A DNA stretch of 64,000 nt from the NCBI RefSeq assembly GCF_005576615.1, contig NZ_CP040330.1:1116001-1180000 (forward strand), written 5' to 3'. Shown here piece after piece: positions 46,670 through 57,085 of this stretch. The notes below the pieces were generated by a model, which did no database searches, had not been told where the DNA came from, and saw nothing but the letters and a program-made list of their open reading frames with translations. Source of the stretch: Natrinema versiforme. GTDB taxonomy: Archaea; Halobacteriota; Halobacteria; Halobacteriales; Natrialbaceae. The position numbers were made by a program, and so were the translations under genes. Numbering within the stretch: position 1 is the stretch's first letter; each line of letters starts with the position of its first letter.

Positions 46670-47281
46670 TCAGTCGAGGCGGGCGAACGCGAGATTGCCC
46701 GAGATGTTCTTGATGTAGATGTCGACGACGTCGCCCTCGTCCGCACCGGGGACGAAGATCGTGTAACTGCCCTTCTCCGCGACACCGTCGCCCTTGCGGC
46801 CGGTGCCGGTGATTTCGACCGTGTAGGTCTGGCCCTCTTCGACGGCGTCTTGCTGTTGTTGCTGCTGGCTGCTGGTCGAGCGCTTGGTGACGGGGCGGAA
46901 CGCACCGCAGGCATCACAGCGCAACATTGGGGTGCGGTCCTCGCGGACGAGACGGGTGTCCGGCAGGCCACACTCCGAACAGAGGACGTACTCGTCGACG
47001 TAGGCGTCGATCGCCGCGTCGAGGTCCGTCTGCGAGAAGGTCCCGTTGTACCGGCCGCGGCCGTTCTCGAGCTTGCCGCTGGTCCCCAGTTCGCGCTGGA
47101 TGAACCGGTGGAGGTGCTCGGTGTCCCGGGAGAGCACGTCGGCGATCTCGTCGAGGTTGGTTACTCGCGTGAACGCGCCGTCTTTCTGTGGCTCCGGGTC
47201 GGGAATCTGTAGCCGCTGTTCGTCGCCCCCGATATCGGGGACATCCTCCATCGCTCGGTCGAGACTCGATTCGTAATCCAT
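46670..47281 (-). CDS. translation initiation factor aIF2-beta with C-terminal TRAM domain
   Basis: A 203-residue protein. The N-terminal half is eIF2-beta: FTRVTNLDEIADVLSRDTEH, then LGTSGKLENGRGRYNGTFSQ. A C4 zinc knuckle follows, CSECGLPDTRLVRED...MLRCDACGA (about residues 100-126). After a glutamine-rich linker (SSQQQQQQ) a TRAM domain spans about 146-203 (YTVEITGTGRKGDGVAEKGS). It delivers initiator tRNA with eIF2-alpha/gamma, and the TRAM domain probably adds RNA binding. Confidence 0.85.
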   Translation of the reverse strand: MDYESSLDRAMEDVPDIGGDEQRLQIPDPEPQKDGAFTRVTNLDEIADVLSRDTEHLHRFIQRELGTSGKLENGRGRYNGTFSQTDLDAAIDAYVDEYVLCSECGLPDTRLVREDRTPMLRCDACGAFRPVTKRSTSSQQQQQQDAVEEGQTYTVEITGTGRKGDGVAEKGSYTIFVPGADEGDVVDIYIKNISGNLAFARLD

Positions 47282-48432: not shown

Positions 48433-49335
48433 ATGGCCACCGAACGGATCACACCCGTCGACCTTCCCGAACCGCGCTACGAGTACGGGGCGGACGATCA
48501 CGTGTTCGTCGAACTCGCGGAGGAGATGAGCTTCACTGCCAATTTCAAGGCGATGGCGATCACCCAGCAGGTCGCCGAGCGAGACATCGACGGCGTCGTC
48601 GAAAACTGCCCGGCCAACGCGTCCTACATGCTCCGTATCGATCCGGAGATCATCCACCCGGACGACCTGATCGCGGAGCTCAAAGAGATCGAGTCCGAGA
48701 TCGACCTCGAGAACTACGAGTGGGAGACGCGTATCATCGACGTGCCGGTCCTGTTCGAGGATCCGTGGACCCACGAGACGCTCATGGAGTTCCGGGAACG
48801 CCATCAAGACCCCGACGGGACGGACCTCGAGTACTCGGCGGAACTCAACGGCTTCGACGGCGTCGAATCCTTTATCGACGCCTTCGTCGGCGCGCCCCAT
48901 CTGGTCACGATGGTCGGGTTCGTGCCGGGGCTGCCGTGGTGTTTCCAGATGGTCCCGCGGAACCAGCAGTTGGAGGTTCCCAAATACGTCGAGCCACGGA
49001 CCGACACGCCGAGCCGCGCGGTCGGTTTCGGCGGCGCGTTCTCGGTCATCTATCCGGTACAGGGGGCCGGCGGCTACCAGCTGTACGGGCGGACTCCGAT
49101 CGAAGTGCTCGACACCGAGCAGACGCTGCCCGACTTCCGCGATTCGATGGTGTTCCCGAACCCCGGTGACATCCTGAACTACAGACGGATCGATCGCGAG
49201 GAGTACGACGCGATCCGCGAGGAGGTCAAAGCGGGCACCTACGAGTACAATTACGGCGAAGTCCGGTTCTCACCGGAGGAGTTCTTCGAGTCACCGGCCG
49301 AGTACAACGAGCGGCTCATGGAGGTGGTCGAATGA
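48433..49335 (+). CDS. PxpB/KipI (AHS1)-family carboxyltransferase subunit
   Basis: A 300-residue cytosolic protein, longer than bacterial KipI/PxpB (about 220-240). The AHS1 core contains the GFVPGLPWCFQMVPRNQQLE motif (about 160-180) and AVGFGGAFSVIYPVQGAGGY with LYGRTPIEVL. Homologous domains occur in 5-oxoprolinase (PxpB) and as half of the carboxyltransferase of urea carboxylase. Its last four bases overlap the next gene, so the two are translated together, as is usual for AHS1/AHS2 pairs. The catalytic role depends on the rest of the cluster. Confidence 0.85.
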   Translation: MATERITPVDLPEPRYEYGADDHVFVELAEEMSFTANFKAMAITQQVAERDIDGVVENCPANASYMLRIDPEIIHPDDLIAELKEIESEIDLENYEWETRIIDVPVLFEDPWTHETLMEFRERHQDPDGTDLEYSAELNGFDGVESFIDAFVGAPHLVTMVGFVPGLPWCFQMVPRNQQLEVPKYVEPRTDTPSRAVGFGGAFSVIYPVQGAGGYQLYGRTPIEVLDTEQTLPDFRDSMVFPNPGDILNYRRIDREEYDAIREEVKAGTYEYNYGEVRFSPEEFFESPAEYNERLMEVVE

Positions 49336-50309
49336 TCGAAATCGAGGCGGGCGGTATCGCGAGTACGGTCCAAGACCTCGGTCGCACCGGCCACTACCAC
49401 ATCGGCATGCCGCCGTCGGGTGCGATGGACCGCTACGCCCACACGGTCGCAAACTATCTCGTCGGGAACGACACCGACGCGGCGACCGTCGAAATGACGT
49501 ATCAGGGCATCACCGCGACGTTCCGAGACGACGCCGTGATCGCGATCACCGGTGCCGACATGTCCCCCAGCCTCAACGGCGACCCGATCGACACGTGGGA
49601 GACCGTCGCCGTCGACGCCGGCGACGAACTCGAGTTGGCGTTCGCGACCGAGGGGGCGCGAGCCTACCTCGCGGTGGCCGGCGGCATCGACGTTCCCGAG
49701 GTGATGGACAGCCGCTCGACGTACACCCTCGTCGGGATCGGCGGTCACGAAGGCCGCGGTCTCGAGGAGGGCGACCGGCTCCCGATCGGGGATGCACCGG
49801 CCGAGCGGCGCGAACTGGTCGGCACGCGGATCGACGACGAGGACGTGCCCGACTACGCGAACGAGGACACCGTTCGGATCGTCCTCGGACTGACGAGCTA
49901 CCGGCTCACCGAGGAGGCCAAGGAGACGCTCTGTGAGTCCGAGTGGACAGTCTCGTCGGAAGCGGACCGCGTCGGCTACCGGCTCGAGGGGCCGGACCTC
50001 GAGTTCGAGGAGCGCGAGCAACCCTTCGGCGCGGGAACCGATCCGTCGAACGTCGTGGACCTCGGCTATCCCATCGGGTCGATTCAGGTGCCCCAGCAGC
50101 CGATCGTCCTCATGCAGGACGCGGTCACGGGCGGCGGCTACGCGACCGTCGGGACCGTGATCAGCGCCGACCGCGGGCTGCTCGCACAGCGCCAGACCCA
50201 CAAGTCGGTCTCTTTCGAGTCAGTCGACGTCGACGAGGCGATCGACGCGCGCAGAGACCAGAACGCGCGCCTCGAGGCGATCCGAGCGGACATCGAGGGT
50301 GAGAATTAG
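49332..50309 (+). CDS. PxpC/KipA (AHS2)-family biotin-dependent carboxyltransferase subunit
   Basis: A 325-residue partner of the preceding gene. AHS2 motifs: IEAGGIASTVQDLGRTGHYH (about 3-22), GMPPSGAMDRYAHTVANYLV, TGADMSPSLNGDPIDTWETV, GARAYLAVAGGIDVPEVMDS and QQPIVLMQDAVTGGGYATVG. In urea carboxylase AHS1 and AHS2 together form the carboxyl-transfer site. In PxpBC they act with PxpA on 5-oxoproline. The short gap to the biotin carrier gene at 50390 puts the biotin source next door. Confidence 0.85.
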   Translation: MIEIEAGGIASTVQDLGRTGHYHIGMPPSGAMDRYAHTVANYLVGNDTDAATVEMTYQGITATFRDDAVIAITGADMSPSLNGDPIDTWETVAVDAGDELELAFATEGARAYLAVAGGIDVPEVMDSRSTYTLVGIGGHEGRGLEEGDRLPIGDAPAERRELVGTRIDDEDVPDYANEDTVRIVLGLTSYRLTEEAKETLCESEWTVSSEADRVGYRLEGPDLEFEEREQPFGAGTDPSNVVDLGYPIGSIQVPQQPIVLMQDAVTGGGYATVGTVISADRGLLAQRQTHKSVSFESVDVDEAIDARRDQNARLEAIRADIEGEN

Positions 50310-50365
50310 AGTCAACGATACGCTAACAGACAGAACAGTAACCAAAACAAAGAATAGATTCGGGA

Positions 50366-50371
50366 TTAAAT
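50366..50371 (+). promoter_or_regulatory. TATA-like box before the biotin carrier gene
   Basis: TTAAAT inside the palindrome GGATT-A-AATCC (50363-50373) is 19-24 bases before the ATG at 50390. That spacing is a little short for a canonical TATA box, so an internal promoter is only possible. Confidence 0.35.
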
Positions 50372-50389
50372 CCGATACATCCACAACAT

Positions 50390-50632
50390 ATGACAGAGAA
50401 AACCACGATCAAGTCACCGATGCCGGGCATCTTCTACCGACAACCCGATCCTGACGACCCGCCGTTCGCCGAACCGGGAGACACCGTCGAAGCGGGCGAC
50501 ACGATCGGCCTCGTCGAAGTGATGAAGAACTTCCACGACATCGAGGCCGACAGTTCGGGGACGATCAGCGAGTTCCTCGTCGAGAACGAGGCCGAAGTCG
50601 AAGCCGATCAGGCGATCGTCGAACTCGAATAA
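50390..50632 (+). CDS. stand-alone biotin carboxyl carrier protein
   Basis: An 80-residue lipoyl/biotinyl domain. It begins KSPMPGIFYRQPDPDDPPFA-style sequence at residue 8, and the modified lysine is in EVMKNFHDIEADSSGTISEF (about residues 43-62); the usual A/V-M-K-M/x motif is VMKN here. Length and the lack of an N-terminal linker show a free-standing carrier rather than a domain of a larger subunit. It is placed between the AHS2 subunit and the LamB/YcsF gene, so it very likely carries carboxylated biotin from the biotin carboxylase to the AHS1/AHS2 pair. Confidence 0.85.
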   Translation: MTEKTTIKSPMPGIFYRQPDPDDPPFAEPGDTVEAGDTIGLVEVMKNFHDIEADSSGTISEFLVENEAEVEADQAIVELE

Positions 50633-50803
50633 CGGCGTCGAAGCGACCCGCCGGATCGGCGAGTTCCGTCCGCTGTCGGCCGATCGCGATTCGACTGTAA
50701 TCGAGACAGGTTTCCTGGTATGCAACCGGATAGGAGCTAGTCTCTGCGTCCTTCGTGAGACGACATTTGACGTTTCCGGGGACTGTTGGACGAACCGACG
50801 TAA

Positions 50804-50812
50804 GCTATATGC
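50804..50812 (+). promoter_or_regulatory. TATA box of the LamB/YcsF gene
   Basis: GCTATATGC lies 24-32 bases before the ATG at 50836, implying a leaderless, separately started transcript. It also selects 50836 over the upstream in-frame starts. Confidence 0.5.
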
Positions 50813-50835
50813 TGGATTGTGCTAGACTCTCACCC

Positions 50836-51597
50836 ATGGCGGCGATCGACATCAACTGCGATATGGGCGAGAGCTTCGGCAACTGGACGATGGGCCACGA
50901 CGAGGCGGTCATGCCCTACATCACGTCCGCGAACGTCGCCGGCGGGTATCACGCCGGCGATCCGCACGTAATGCGGGAAACGGTCGAGTTGGCGGCCGAA
51001 CACGACGTCGGCATCGGTGTCCATCCCGGTCTGCCGGATCGGACCGGCTTCGGGCGGCGCAAGATCGACGCCACGCCGGAAGAAGTGCGCGACTACGTCG
51101 TCTACCAACTCGGCGCGCTCACGGCGTTCGCTCGCCGCCACGGCGCGACCGTCCAGCACGTCAAGCCCCACGGGGCGATGTATTCGATGCTCTCGGAAAG
51201 CCCGGAGCACGCCCGCGCGGTCATGAACGGCATGCTCGAGGTCGACGACGATCTCATCTACCTCGCGACCGATATGAACATCTACGAGGTCGCACGGGAC
51301 ATCGACGGGCTTCGGGCGGTGTTCGAAGGCTACGTCGATCTGGATTACCGGGCCGACCGCTCCCTGATCGTCGAACAGGAACTCGCCGACCGCGATCCCG
51401 AACTCGTCGCCGAACGGTTCGTCTCGATCGCCACCGACGGCGTCGTGGAGGCGGCAAACGGCGAGGAGATCTCGATCCCCGCCGAGAGCATCTGTATCCA
51501 CGGGGACAACCCCAATGCCGTCGCGATCCTCGAGGCGATCCACGACCGGGTCGAGGAACACGACATCGAACTCGCACCGCTGTCGCAAATCGCCTGA
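50836..51597 (+). CDS. LamB/YcsF-family PxpA-like protein
   Basis: A 253-residue protein starting MAAIDINCDMGESFGNWTMG, the family signature. Other motifs: ITSANVAGGYHAGDPHVMRE (about 34-53), GIGVHPGLPDRTGFGRRKID, VQHVKPHGAMYSMLSESPEH and ESICIHGDNPNAVAILEAI. PxpA proteins open 5-oxoproline with ATP alongside PxpBC. The distorted TIM-barrel metal-binding residues (N8, D10, H45 and similar) are present. It ends 55 bases from the convergent biotin carboxylase gene. Confidence 0.85.
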   Translation: MAAIDINCDMGESFGNWTMGHDEAVMPYITSANVAGGYHAGDPHVMRETVELAAEHDVGIGVHPGLPDRTGFGRRKIDATPEEVRDYVVYQLGALTAFARRHGATVQHVKPHGAMYSMLSESPEHARAVMNGMLEVDDDLIYLATDMNIYEVARDIDGLRAVFEGYVDLDYRADRSLIVEQELADRDPELVAERFVSIATDGVVEAANGEEISIPAESICIHGDNPNAVAILEAIHDRVEEHDIELAPLSQIA

Positions 51598-51651
51598 TCG
51601 AGGTGTTGAAACACCGATCTCGAAACGAACTCCCCTGCCGCCCGTTGATCC

Positions 51652-52995
51652 TCACTCGTCGAGCAGTTCTCGTTCCACGTACTTCGTCGTGTGTTCGTTC
51701 GAAATGAACCCGTCGTCCTCGAGGAGCCGCCGGTGGAACGGGATCGTCGTCGGGACGCCCTCGATCGTCGTCTCGTCGAGCGTGCGTTTACTGCGGGCGA
51801 GCACCTCGTCTCTGTCCTGTCCGGTGACGATCAGTTTCGCGAACATCGAGTCGTAAAACGGGGCGATCGAGTCGCCCTCGTCGACGCCGTCGTCGACGCG
51901 AACGCCGATGCCCCGCGGCGGTTCGTACGTCGACAGCGTCCCCGGCAACGGCGTGAAATCGTTGTCGGGGTCCTCCGCGTTGATGCGGAACTCCATGGCG
52001 GCCCCGCGCGGGTCGACCTCGTCTTGGGAGAACGAGAGTTCCTCGCCGGCGGCGACCCGGAGCTGCCACGTGACCAGATCGATCCCGGTGAGTTCCTCGG
52101 TCACCGCGTGTTCGACCTGAATCCGCGCGTTGACTTCGATGAAGTAGAACTCGCCGCCCTCGTAGAGGAACTCGACGGTGCCGGCGTTGACGTAGTCGGC
52201 CGCCGCTGCCCCGCGGCAGGCGGCCTCCCAGAGTTCGGCGCGCGTGTCGTCGTCTAGCACCGGTGAGGGCGACTCCTCGAGGAGTTTCTGCTGGCGTCGC
52301 TGAATGCTGCAGTCGCGTTCGCCGAGGTGGCGCACGTTTCCGTGTTCGTCGCCGATGATCTGGACTTCGATGTGACGCGGGCTCTCGAGGAACTTCTCGA
52401 GGTAGACGTTCGGGTTGTCGAAGTACGCGTCGCCCTCGCGAATCGCTTCCTGGAGCTTCGAGTCGATCTGGGACGGTTCGTGGACGATCTTAAGCCCGCG
52501 GCCGCCGCCGCCGCCGTCGGCTTTGATCGCGACGGGATAGCCGTGTTCCTCGGCGAACGCCTCGACTTCGTCGGCGGACGTGACCGGATCGGTCGTTCCG
52601 GGCACGATGGGGACGTCCGCCGATTCCATGATCTTTCGGGCTTTCGTCTTCTCGCCGAAATCGGCCATCACGTCGCTCGGCGGGCCGATCCACGCGAACT
52701 CGCTTTCCTCGACGTTCGCGGCGAACGATTCGTTCTCGGCGAGGAACCCGTACCCCGGGTGAATCGCGTCGGCGTCGGCCGCCCGCGCCGCCTCGAGCAG
52801 CGCGTCCTGATTGAGATAGCTATCTTTCGCCTTCGAGCCGCCGATGTGGTAGGCCTCGTCGGCCATGCGGACGTGTTTGGCGTCCTCGTCGGCGTCGCTG
52901 TAGACGGCTATCGCGTCGATATCCAGGTCCGTACACGCCTGAATGATTCGAACGGCGATCTCTTCTCGGTTCGCGATCAGCACTCTTTCGAACAC
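51652..52995 (-). CDS. accC: biotin carboxylase (AccC type)
   Basis: A 447-residue biotin carboxylase. ATP-grasp motifs: [20 protein letters not shown] at the N-terminus, [14 protein letters not shown], the glycine-rich [17 protein letters not shown] (about 160-176), [20 protein letters not shown] and the catalytic [20 protein letters not shown] region (about 285-305; usually QVEHPVTE). It carboxylates the biotin of a carrier with ATP and bicarbonate. It begins at GTG 52995, with TATA box CTTTATCT at 53022-53029, and is convergent to the AHS1-AHS2-carrier-LamB genes. The only carrier and transferase subunits in the window are those neighbours. Confidence 0.9.
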
Positions 52996-53181: not shown

Positions 53182-54516
53182 TCAGGCGACCGTCTCGAGG
53201 GCCGCCTCCAGTTCGTCGACGGCGTACTGGAGCTGGTCGCGGGAGATGGTCAGCGGCGGCTGGAAGCGCATGACGTTCTTGTAGTAGCCGCCGACGCCCA
53301 TCACGACGTTCGACTCCTCGCGGAGGGACTCGCTCACCGCGGACGCGAGGTCGCTGTCCGGTTTCGGCGCGACGTTCTGTGGCCCGGTCTCGCTCGGATC
53401 GACGAGTTCGACGCCGCGCATGAGCCCGAGGCCGCGGGTCTGCCCGACGACGTCGTACTCGTCCTCGAGGGTCTGGAGTTCGGACTCGAGCCACGCGCCC
53501 TGCTCGCTGGCGTTGTCGACGATCCCGTCCTGTAGTTCGTCGATCGTCGCGAGCGCGGCGGCACAAGCGACGGGGTTCCCGCCGAACGTCGAGAGGTGGT
53601 CGCCGGACTCGAAGGCGTCCGCGATCTCCGCGGAGGCGGTGAAGGCACCCAGCGGCAACCCGTTCGCGATGCCTTTCGCCTGCGTGAGGATGTCGGGTTC
53701 GACATCGAAGTGGCTGCTCGCGAACAGCTCCCCGGTCCGACCGTAGCCGGTCTGGACCTCGTCGGCGATGAGCAGTGCGCCGTGGTCGTGGGCGATCTCC
53801 TGGACCCGCTCGAGCCACCCCGCCGGCGGCACGATGATTCCGGCCTCGCCCATGACGGGTTCGACGACGACCGCCGCGAGGTCCCCGCTCGTGTGCGAGC
53901 CGATGATCCGCTCGAGTTCCTCGGCGCAGTCGGCATCGCACTGGTCGCCGTCACAGCGCGGACAGCGGTAGCCGTACGGCGGCGCGGTGTGGGCAACGTC
54001 GTTGAGCGTCGGGGCCATGCCCTGCTTGTAGGCCTTGTTCCCCGTCAGCGCCAGACTGCCGAGGGTACGGCCGTGAAAGCCCATCTCGAGGGCGATGACT
54101 TCCTTCGAGCCGGTGTACTTCCGCGCGAGTTTGACCGCGCCCTCCACGGCCTCGGTCCCGGAATTACAGAAGAAGCTCTTCTGCAGGTCGCCCGGCGTCA
54201 CGTCGGCGATCCGTTCGGCGAGGTCGGCGACCGGTTCGTTGGGGTGGACGTACGAACAGCCGTGGACGAACTCGTCGAGTTGGTCTTTCGCGGCGTCGAC
54301 GACGGCGTCGTTGTCGTGGCCGACGTTGACCACCGAAATCCCGGAGAAGACATCGAGGTACTCGTTGCCCTCGAAGTCCTCGAGCGTACAGCCCGAGGCC
54401 CGTTTGATCGGCACGTCGAGCGATTTCCAGATGGGCATCACGTGGTCGTCGTACGCCGACAGGACGGCCGCGTTCGACTCCCGGCCGGCGGACGAATCAG
54501 TTTGTTGTCCAGCCAT
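53182..54516 (-). CDS. class III aminotransferase (GABA/acetylornithine type)
   Basis: A 444-residue PLP aminotransferase. Motifs: LEDFEGNEYLDVFSGISVVN, FFCNSGTEAVEGAVKLARKY (about 113-132), GFHGRTLGSLALTGNKAYKQ, LLIADEVQTGYGRTGELFAS and the PLP lysine in DILTQAKGIANGLPLGAFTA. A CPRCDGDQCDADC stretch near 183-195 is an unusual cysteine insertion. Likely substrates are omega-amino acids such as 4-aminobutyrate or 5-aminovalerate. It is divergent from the Lrp-type regulator at 54720. Confidence 0.85.
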   Translation of the reverse strand: MAGQQTDSSAGRESNAAVLSAYDDHVMPIWKSLDVPIKRASGCTLEDFEGNEYLDVFSGISVVNVGHDNDAVVDAAKDQLDEFVHGCSYVHPNEPVADLAERIADVTPGDLQKSFFCNSGTEAVEGAVKLARKYTGSKEVIALEMGFHGRTLGSLALTGNKAYKQGMAPTLNDVAHTAPPYGYRCPRCDGDQCDADCAEELERIIGSHTSGDLAAVVVEPVMGEAGIIVPPAGWLERVQEIAHDHGALLIADEVQTGYGRTGELFASSHFDVEPDILTQAKGIANGLPLGAFTASAEIADAFESGDHLSTFGGNPVACAAALATIDELQDGIVDNASEQGAWLESELQTLEDEYDVVGQTRGLGLMRGVELVDPSETGPQNVAPKPDSDLASAVSESLREESNVVMGVGGYYKNVMRFQPPLTISRDQLQYAVDELEAALETVA

Positions 54517-54550: not shown

Positions 54551-54719
54551 TGTCTTTAGGAATTCTGTCCCATCTCTAAAACGCCGGCCCCGGATTCACT
54601 GATCGCTCGAGCGGCGCGACCGCTCGAGTCGCGGCGAACCCCCGAACTGCATCCAACGTTTCCCCGATCTCGCGACTCACGTTCGAATGTTGTTTATCCG
54701 TGTACTCCGTTTCGCGAGT

Positions 54720-55211
54720 ATGGACGAGCGAAACGTTCGCATTCTTCAGGCTATCGCGGAACTCGGAACGGGGAGTCCGGACGAGATTTCGGAGTACACC
54801 GACATCCCGAAGTCGACCGTTCACTATCGACTCACGAAACTCAAAGAGAGCGGCGTCGTGACAGACGATCTGTTCGACATCGACCTCGAGGAGTTCGGAC
54901 TCGAGATCACGGTGATCACGGAGGTCATCGCGGAGTACGAAGAGCAGTACCACGAGGAGGTCGGCGAGAAACTCGCCGCCATCGAGGGGGTCAATCAGGT
55001 GTACTTCACGATGGGCGACACCGATTTCGTCGTCATCGCCCACCTCTCGGGCCGCGAGATGGTCCACCGGCTCATCAGCGACTACGAGGCGATCGACGAG
55101 GTCGTCCGAACGAGTTCGCAGTTCGTCGTCGAAACGGTCAAAGACGAGTCCTACCCGCTGAACGACTTCGAACTGGACACGTTAGTCGAAACCGTCGCCG
55201 ACGACGAGTGA
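54720..55211 (+). CDS. Lrp/AsnC-family transcription regulator
   Basis: A 163-residue regulator. The N-terminal winged helix is MDERNVRILQAIAELGTGSP through DIPKSTVHYRLTKLKESGVV (residues 1-45). The C-terminal RAM/AsnC-ligand domain holds VITEVIAEYEEQYHEEVGEK, the VNQVYFTMGDTDFVVIAHLS core and REMVHRLISDYEAIDEV. Lrp proteins sense amino acids. Its position between a divergent aminotransferase and a convergent APC permease suggests that it controls them and the accC cluster, perhaps through the TTGGACA-type palindromes. Confidence 0.85.
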   Translation: MDERNVRILQAIAELGTGSPDEISEYTDIPKSTVHYRLTKLKESGVVTDDLFDIDLEEFGLEITVITEVIAEYEEQYHEEVGEKLAAIEGVNQVYFTMGDTDFVVIAHLSGREMVHRLISDYEAIDEVVRTSSQFVVETVKDESYPLNDFELDTLVETVADDE

Positions 55212-55289: not shown

Positions 55290-56687
55290 CTACTCGAGTT
55301 CGTCGAGTTCGAGATCCGCCAGCTCGAGGTCGGAATCGGTCGAGGAGGCGCCGTACAGGACCACGCCGAGCAGCGCCCAGAGGAGGACGATCGCCCACTC
55401 GTAGGGCCACACGAGCGCCGACGGGCCGCCGGGCAGGTAGAGGCCGATGAATCCGAGCGTCAGGACCAGCCCGGCCACTCCGAACGCGTACCCGAACGGG
55501 AGCTTCAGCGGCCGGTTCAGTTCGGGCTCGCGACGGCGCAACACCAGGAAGGAGACGGCCACGATGAACCACGCGACGACGAGACCGAGGCCGCTCGCGT
55601 TGACGATCCAGACCAGCATCTGTTCGCCGAACAGTGGGGCGAAGATCGAGAGACCGCCGATGAGGGCGATGGCCGTCGAGGGCGTATTGTACTCGGGGTG
55701 GAGCGTGTTGATCCGCCGCGGGATCATGCCGGAGTCGGCGAGCGCGAAGACGGCACGGCTGGCTCCGAGCAGGAAGGAGTTCCAACTCGTCAGGATGCCC
55801 GCGATACCGGCGAGTGCCATGATACGGCCGATCAGCTGACTGCTGAAGATCGCTTCCATGGCCGCGGCGGCCGGCAGCGGACTGTCGACGAGCGTGGAGC
55901 CGGGCATCGCCTGTCCGGACGCCCAGATGACCGCGATGTAAAACAGCGCGGCGAGCGTGACCGACGCCGGGATGAGTAGTCCGATGAGCCGGGGCGCGAC
56001 ATCTGCTTCCTCCGCGGATTGGGGGATAACGTCGAAGCCGACGAACATGAACGGCGTCATGATCGCGACCGTCGCCACGCCCGCCGTTCCGACGTCCGAC
56101 AGCGGCGGGTTCGGCTGCGACTGGCCGTTGAAGAGCGCGCCGATGACGAGCATGATCCCGGCCAGACCGATGACGAGTGCCAGTATCGTTTGGAACTGTG
56201 CTGCGGGTTTCACGCCGCGGTAGTTGAGCGCCGTCATCACGACCGCGCCGATCCCGCCGACGAGAATCCACGAGGCGTAGACCGGCTCGCCGGCCACCGT
56301 CCAGAGTTCGAGGACGTTGAAGCCGGGTACGATGTACGCCATCGCGGACGGTAGCGCCACGACCTCGAAGACGACGACGCCGACGTAGCCGAGGACGAGC
56401 GACCACGTACAGACGAACGACCAGAGCGGCCCGAGCGCCCGGAAGCTGTACACGTGCTCGCCGCCGACGAACGGCAGCGCGGAGGCGAGCTCGCCGTAGA
56501 TCAGGCCGACGATACAGACCATGATCGCGCCCGCGACGAAGCCGAGCACCGATCCGGCGACCCCCGCTTCGTCGATCCAGAAGCCGGTCTGGATAATCCA
56601 TCCCCACCCGATCATCGCGCCGAACGCGAGCACGAAGAGGTCTTTCTTCGTCAGTATCCGCTCGAAGTTGTTGCTATCTTCTACCAT
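55290..56687 (-). CDS. APC-family amino acid permease
   Basis: A 465-residue inner-membrane transporter with twelve predicted helices. Helix 1 has the APC pattern KDLFVLAFGAMIGWGWIIQT (GxxIGxG-like), with VGLIYGELASALPFVGGEHV in helix 2-3 and GILTSWNSFLLGASRAVFAL near the middle. It carries an amino acid or amine whose identity is not visible. The ATG at 56687 (MVEDSNNFERIL) is chosen. A TATA-like TTAAACTTAACA lies near 56713-56724. Confidence 0.8.
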   Translation of the reverse strand: MVEDSNNFERILTKKDLFVLAFGAMIGWGWIIQTGFWIDEAGVAGSVLGFVAGAIMVCIVGLIYGELASALPFVGGEHVYSFRALGPLWSFVCTWSLVLGYVGVVVFEVVALPSAMAYIVPGFNVLELWTVAGEPVYASWILVGGIGAVVMTALNYRGVKPAAQFQTILALVIGLAGIMLVIGALFNGQSQPNPPLSDVGTAGVATVAIMTPFMFVGFDVIPQSAEEADVAPRLIGLLIPASVTLAALFYIAVIWASGQAMPGSTLVDSPLPAAAAMEAIFSSQLIGRIMALAGIAGILTSWNSFLLGASRAVFALADSGMIPRRINTLHPEYNTPSTAIALIGGLSIFAPLFGEQMLVWIVNASGLGLVVAWFIVAVSFLVLRRREPELNRPLKLPFGYAFGVAGLVLTLGFIGLYLPGGPSALVWPYEWAIVLLWALLGVVLYGASSTDSDLELADLELDELE

Positions 56688-57085
56688 ACCACTCCCTGTC
56701 CAATACCGGGTGTTAAGTTTAACTAAATACAATCCATTGGGATCACGTTCCTGTTAGCTGTCTTTGGCCGGACATTGTCCAATATACGGAATTACTGACC
56801 GATCGAAACGACGGTACGCGAAGTGTTGCCGTCGATGAACCCGGAGTTACCCCAGTGGGCACCTCGAAGAGCCGCTGTTATGACTCGGTTTCGGACCCTG
56901 CCGGTCATCGAAACGACTGTCTACTCGGCGTAGCAGTTGTCTACTCCTCGAGTACGCTGCTCATATATAGGGCGGGGAATCCGGTACCTCAATTCGATGA
57001 CTAGTACTGTCAGACGACAGTCGTCGTCGCGGAACAGTCAGACGAACGATTCTACGGCAGCCACGGCCGGGTACGGAGCGTAACC
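56688..57085. promoter_or_regulatory. divergent region with palindrome, direct repeats and TATA box
   Basis: CCGGACA-T-TGTCCAA (56768-56782) matches the accC palindrome, and TGTCCAA recurs as a half site at 56697-56703. TGTCTACTC is repeated at 56918-56926 and 56938-56946, two helical turns apart, about 17 bases upstream of CATATATAG (56962-56970), the likely TATA box for the rightward ORFs. Confidence 0.45.
56997..57083 (+). CDS. possible 28-aa upstream ORF
   Basis: ATG at 56997, about 30 bases after the TATA box at 56962-56970, opens MTSTVRRQSSSRNSQTNDST and continues to TAA at 57081-57083, two bases before the next gene's ATG. The frames differ (+2). A leaderless start and a tight stop/start arrangement fit translational coupling to the surface-protein gene. 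It could also be a chance ORF in an untranslated leader. Confidence 0.3.
   Translation: MTSTVRRQSSSRNSQTNDSTAATAGYGA

Follow-up and report, generated by a model that had tools for sequence, protein, structure and literature searches.

LamA of Aspergillus is a single long chain resembling urea carboxylase, and LamA and LamB are needed as a pair for the use of 2-pyrrolidinone. In Aspergillus nidulans, lamA and lamB are genes of lactam catabolism with a regulator in common with gatA and gabA, as shown for their co-regulation (PMC8016842). The LamB/YcsF family is named after LamB. Here we analyse a cluster of five genes, likewise including a LamB/YcsF gene, in a stretch of 64,000 nucleotides (the window) of the archaeon Natrinema versiforme (contig NZ_CP040330.1, positions 1,116,001 to 1,180,000). 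Where Aspergillus has one long chain, which is compared here by its description only, the archaeal cluster has four separate polypeptides. We consider it probable (roughly 0.72) that the five genes encode a split biotin-dependent lactam carboxylase together with a LamB hydrolase, whichever lactam is the substrate. This reading draws on the parts, their linkage, the carrier motif, a conserved lysine and altered substrate residues, all of which are features of the sequence.

Three other described systems are close to the cluster. The urea and guanidine carboxylases (K. lactis urea carboxylase, PDB 3va7 and 5i8i) have in common with it a biotin carboxylase (BC), a carrier, an AHS2/AHS1 carboxyltransferase, the general-base Lys, a filled AHS2 insert region and a full-length AHS1. 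The window differs in its split chains, in the absence of Asp1584 and Asn/Asp1330, and in its partner, which is LamB, whereas theirs is allophanate hydrolase or carboxyguanidine deiminase. The PxpABC 5-oxoprolinase of E. coli (YbgJ/YbgK/YbgL) shares AHS1, AHS2, LamB/YcsF and the Phe and Gln positions with the window, but it has a short AHS1, Arg for the catalytic Lys, no AHS2 insert, a separate branch in the carboxyltransferase tree and, in the locus read (L055), no adjoining BC or carrier gene. In M. smegmatis, MSMEG_0435-0436 (PDB 9yx5, known here from its title, chain names and alignment) is an AHS1/AHS2 pair located physically on a biotin carboxylase system, which is the likeness to the window; it differs in being a PxpB-like pair of the Arg type that borrows the alpha3 subunit of a long-chain acyl-CoA carboxylase and has no dedicated BC or carrier. 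As this structure shows, a biotin system can be a docking site for AHS proteins. The five genes of the window are the following.

48433..49335, plus strand: AHS1 carboxyltransferase subunit (CT_C_D), long urea-carboxylase-like form; Pfam PF02682, 1.4e-36
49332..50309, plus strand: AHS2 carboxyltransferase subunit (CT_A_B); Pfam PF02626, 1.6e-89
50390..50632, plus strand: free 80-aa biotin carboxyl carrier protein (Biotin_lipoyl) with the biotinylation motif EVMKN; PF00364, 4.3e-17
50836..51597, plus strand: LamB/YcsF, predicted ring-opening hydrolase subunit; PF03746, 1.3e-87
51652..52995, minus strand: stand-alone biotin carboxylase, 447 aa, without a fused carrier; Pfam BC domains and NF006367

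Components and linkage of the cluster

AHS1, AHS2, the carrier and LamB are consecutive on the plus strand, the AHS1 and AHS2 frames overlapping by 4 bp, and BC is on the minus strand, convergent with LamB at a stop-to-stop distance of 54 bp. All five genes are where an earlier note had placed them, four in one block and BC facing them, and their identities and linkage bear out its proposal of one split biotin-dependent carboxylase with LamB, likely acting on a lactam. The best Pfam E-values of the five lie between 4e-17 (carrier) and 2e-89 (AHS2). The carrier scores 109 bits with NCBIfam NF005457 (cut-off 87) and matches the AccB biotinyl domain at 2.7e-17; the biotinylation motif xxMK is present in every carrier-bearing relative. 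In BC, Biotin_carb_N, CPSase_L_D2 and Biotin_carb_C are all full length and NF006367 is above its cut-off. LamB exceeds the cut-off of the NCBIfam 'PxpA' subfamily NF003814 (301 against 226 bits), and PH0986 and YbgL are its solved homologues.

The haloarchaeal host genome (4.67 Mb) contains one CT_A_B gene, one LamB gene, two biotin carboxylases, of which the second is a fused 621-aa BC-BCCP far from the cluster, and one BirA-type biotin ligase (TIGR00121, 173.7 bits, above cut-off). The components by which a biotin-dependent carboxylase is recognised are all present, namely BC, a carrier with the biotinyl-lysine motif, a carboxyltransferase and a biotin ligase elsewhere in the genome.

Linkage was followed in one set of 194 haloarchaeal genomes searched for CT_A_B, the free carrier and LamB; the Fisher p-values given here ignore the shared ancestry of these genomes. 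AHS2 is found in 21 genomes, and a close free carrier (counted at E < 1e-20) accompanies it in 21 of 21, while none of the 173 genomes lacking AHS2 has one (p = 1.4e-28). The remaining carrier matches are weak (E > 1e-7), and most of them are part of long frames sized like fused acyl-CoA carboxylases. LamB occurs in 24 genomes, including all 20 with an intact AHS2 (p = 2.6e-22), a count in which G150, whose gene is cut by a contig boundary, is scored as intact. The exception is G123, which has a decayed AHS2 with in-frame stops and has kept the carrier and lost LamB (G123:C11:14779-15573; L045:9816-10583). Most haloarchaeal sets span within about 10 kb, apart from G047, with its carrier 61 kb away, and G137, in which LamB and BC are at other places of the same contig. 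The co-occurrence statistics led us to reject chance neighbourhood as an explanation. In two haloarchaeal genomes without AHS genes, LamB stands directly beside an amidase-family gene (L152:6862-9273, assigned by scoring, and L153:6737-9155, alike by its start), which suggests another partnership of LamB, with an amidase-family protein.

An AHS2 alignment was used to scan the contigs of a genome collection, which yielded 80 loci; going by the record titles, 75 are bacterial. The 80 are the best matches to the window AHS2 and hence over-represent its own kind. All five genes are present in 59, the usual bacterial order being LamB-BCCP-BC-AHS1-AHS2, and five others are incomplete, and in four of these the contig is short or ends at the locus. 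BC-linked clusters of a second kind, with accB-accC beside a short, PxpB-like, Arg-type AHS1, occur in Bradyrhizobium, Rhizobium phaseoli, Paraburkholderia and on Lactiplantibacillus plasmids. No AHS2 relatives were found among the viral contigs searched. Clustering of neighbours revealed no universal neighbour, regulators and transporters of single lineages being dominant.

In the BC tree the haloarchaeal cluster BCs form one clade (0.994), sister to the haloarchaeal acyl-CoA carboxylase BCs, and both groups jointly are apart from the bacterial cluster BCs (1.0). Therefore, the BC of the haloarchaeal clusters seems to have been recruited locally, to work with a carboxyltransferase that haloarchaea have in common with bacteria.

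Relationships and substrate residues of the carboxyltransferase

AHS1 can be aligned over nearly its whole length with K. lactis urea carboxylase, and the best Foldseek matches of its AlphaFold model (pLDDT 83, pTM 0.85) are K. lactis urea amidolyase/urea carboxylase. Neither half reaches the NCBIfam cut-off of its PxpBC counterpart: AHS1 has 71.6 against 145.6 bits for PxpB, and AHS2 228 against 500 bits for PxpC. AHS2 contains the insert FGAGxDPSNxVDxxY, at a position that is also filled in urea carboxylase. In a FastTree tree of AHS2 and AHS1 (46 rows, SH-like support values), the clade of the window stands beside urea carboxylase, apart from E. coli PxpBC and from the second, Arg-type kind (1.0). 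Nocardia sienata has an additional AHS2-AHS1 pair beside its cluster (L073:9015-11434, minus strand), with the urea-carboxylase-type Lys and with Tyr and Leu at the substrate positions; this pair groups with urea carboxylase in the tree.

The general base of urea carboxylase is Lys1605 (PMC5770610), which corresponds to K184 in the window AHS1 and is Lys in all 102 members aligned; E. coli PxpB and the Arg-type pairs have Arg there. Asp1584 and Asn1330 mark urea carboxylases, and Asp1330 guanidine carboxylases (PMC11410670; compare PMC12186494). In 102 of 102 members these two positions are Phe (F163 of AHS1) and Gln (Q252 of AHS2). Gln at position 1330 is present in all Arg-type pairs examined, and Phe at 1584 in E. 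coli PxpB and in one of four pairs of the second kind. Because E. coli PxpB/C also has Phe and Gln, the pocket probably resembles that of the oxoprolinase, and the carboxyltransferase may combine the chemistry of urea carboxylase with an oxoprolinase-like pocket. The earlier note had described the parts of urea carboxylase and of PxpABC as two sets coexisting here. That picture of a mixture does not hold: the carboxyltransferase is one clade sister to urea carboxylase, with the lysine of the latter and Phe and Gln instead of its defining residues. Urea and guanidine are furthermore unlikely substrates because neither an allophanate hydrolase above cut-off nor a carboxyguanidine deiminase is encoded in the genome, which is 99.97% complete.

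Proposed reaction, neighbouring genes and alternatives

In the proposed reaction, the subunits would act as a complex in which BC spends ATP to attach a carboxyl group from bicarbonate to the biotin of the small carrier. AHS1-AHS2 would then pass this group on to the nitrogen of the lactam ring (or to its oxygen), with K184 as the putative general base. Carboxylation would activate the amide, so that LamB could hydrolyse the C-N bond of the ring, and the resulting N-carboxy amino acid would release CO2. The net result would be a ring opening driven by ATP in which CO2 activates the substrate catalytically, a parallel to urea carboxylase with allophanate hydrolase. The hydrolysis of 5-oxoproline is uphill (Keq about 0.035; PMC13274462), and comparable arguments have been put forward for a caprolactamase that depends on bicarbonate and belongs to the unrelated hydantoinase/oxoprolinase family (PMC8453981).

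Clues to the substrate come from neighbouring genes. In two Enterovibrio loci (L111, for which the families were scored, and its homologue L124), the genes directly behind AHS2 are those of a succinate-semialdehyde dehydrogenase and then of a gamma-aminobutyrate (GABA) transaminase, and gabT and/or gabD lie near three more bacterial clusters (L050, L072, L076). Considering these neighbours together with the role of lamA and lamB in Aspergillus, 2-pyrrolidinone (giving GABA) or a close relative is our leading guess, and 5-oxoproline comes second; for 2-pyrrolidinone specifically the assignment is tentative and falls short of probable. Molybdenum hydroxylases of the CO-dehydrogenase/xanthine-dehydrogenase type are able to convert N-heterocycles to lactams. 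Six haloarchaeal loci have genes of this type close to the cluster (L030, L033, L037, L043, L070 and L071, for example L071:2624-6449), and a seventh has them beside an orphan LamB (L155:2902-6654). The genes next to BC in the window are listed below.

53182..54516, minus strand (as BC): class III aminotransferase; PF00202, 5.6e-117
54687..55211, plus strand: Lrp/AsnC-type regulator; PF01037, 1.6e-10
55290..56732, minus strand: APC-family amino-acid permease; PF13520, 5.8e-36

The nearest solved chains to the aminotransferase are GABA transaminases, and it possibly catalyses a downstream step. The Lrp/AsnC-type protein is a probable regulator of the locus; genes of its type accompany the cluster in seven haloarchaeal loci as well. 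The permease, retained among the compared loci in L031 and L035 only, is a possible uptake gene. Upstream of the cluster, at 46670-47281 on the minus strand, the window encodes a translation-factor-like protein that has an IF2B/IF5 domain and, at its C terminus, a TRAM domain.

The alternatives differ in substrate or in the use of biotin. The same enzyme and mechanism could act on 5-oxoproline, as a biotin-dependent variant of 5-oxoprolinase that yields glutamate, which the earlier note had named as a possibility. LamB scoring above the PxpA cut-off and the Phe and Gln residues in common with E. coli PxpB/C agree with this, as does P. aeruginosa PA14, where the gene adjoining a LamB-AHS1-AHS2 set is listed as OpdO, 'lactam/pyroglutamate uptake' (PMC6327441). 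On the other hand, AHS1 and AHS2 miss the PxpB and PxpC cut-offs, an oxoprolinase would not need the two GABA-pathway genes that follow AHS2 in Enterovibrio, and lamA and lamB in Aspergillus serve lactam catabolism alongside genes for omega-amino acids. Thus 5-oxoproline stays one candidate, rather an unlikely one, while the neighbourhood evidence leans to 2-pyrrolidinone. If, instead, no biotin were involved, the cluster would be a plain PxpABC beside the BC and carrier of an unrelated acyl-CoA carboxylase, as the NCBIfam names imply: PxpA for the product of LamB, and parts of acetyl-CoA carboxylase for the carrier and BC. We rejected plain PxpABC on account of the urea-carboxylase-type Lys, the position in the carboxyltransferase tree and the model cut-offs; the carrier also co-occurs with AHS2 in 21 of 21 haloarchaea, and the cluster BC, without a fused carrier, belongs to a clade of its own, the acyl-CoA type BC being encoded elsewhere. 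This arrangement is very improbable.

Least probable of all is that the cluster is a urea (or guanidine) carboxylase in split form, the name under which such haloarchaeal genes may appear in annotations: 'urea carboxylase (amydolyase)' modules are listed for a natronoarchaeal genome (PMC12343721), and these may or may not be this cluster. The best structural relative of AHS1 and the retained lysine speak for it, but Asp1584 and Asn/Asp1330 are absent throughout and the constant partner is LamB; with the substrate residues altered and the partner genes missing, we rejected this identity, which is largely refuted.

Several observations weigh against the lactam carboxylase that we prefer. GABA-pathway genes adjoin a minority of clusters only, and the window aminotransferase reaches no NCBIfam cut-off, that of GABA transaminase included. 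Sixteen of the 80 loci, all in Pseudomonas (L075, L081, L103, L143 and twelve others), consist of LamB-AHS1-AHS2 with no local BC or carrier, and therefore a dedicated carrier is not universal. The AHS1 of these loci still has the catalytic Lys, and in the four such genomes checked the only carrier, besides weak matches, is AccB-like (154-155 aa). These triads may borrow AccB and AccC, the supply of BC being shared. The earlier note would have given up its proposal if carrier and BC were unlinked to the AHS genes; they are linked, in favour of the proposal, in haloarchaea and in 59 of the 80 loci, and unlinked in these sixteen. Its premise that the PxpB/C type works without biotin is unsafe, given the PxpB-like Arg-type pairs beside accB-accC and the pair on a mycobacterial biotin-dependent acyl-CoA carboxylase in PDB 9yx5. 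Arg-type pairs may use biotin too, in which case Lys versus Arg would not separate biotin-using from biotin-free enzymes.

Precedents and significance

The system has precedents in LamA/LamB, urea carboxylase and PDB 9yx5. A survey of 2011 recorded stand-alone genes similar to both halves of the urea carboxylase transferase, which were then unstudied (PMC3199775). We found no description of the prokaryotic five-gene system in open-access papers, a scope that leaves out most subscription journals.

We would give even odds to the wider proposal of a class of lactam carboxylases, characterized by the Phe-Lys-Gln signature and the LamB partner, present in haloarchaea and many bacteria, using CO2 as a temporary handle for ring opening and having, in haloarchaea, a BC apparently recruited from the local acyl-CoA carboxylase lineage. 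A lactam branch, if true, would add a substrate class to the biotin-dependent carboxylases, whose known substrates are CoA esters, 2-oxo acids, urea and guanidine, and would explain how an ATP-costly ring opening is driven, the formation of 5-oxoproline being strongly favoured over its hydrolysis. It would also correct the annotation of a conserved operon, now labelled 5-oxoprolinase, urea carboxylase or acetyl-CoA carboxylase. With the three-residue signature and a BC and carrier that are optional, substrate activation by AHS1/AHS2 can be tested directly, and the enzyme could be relevant to the breakdown of nylon-type lactams.

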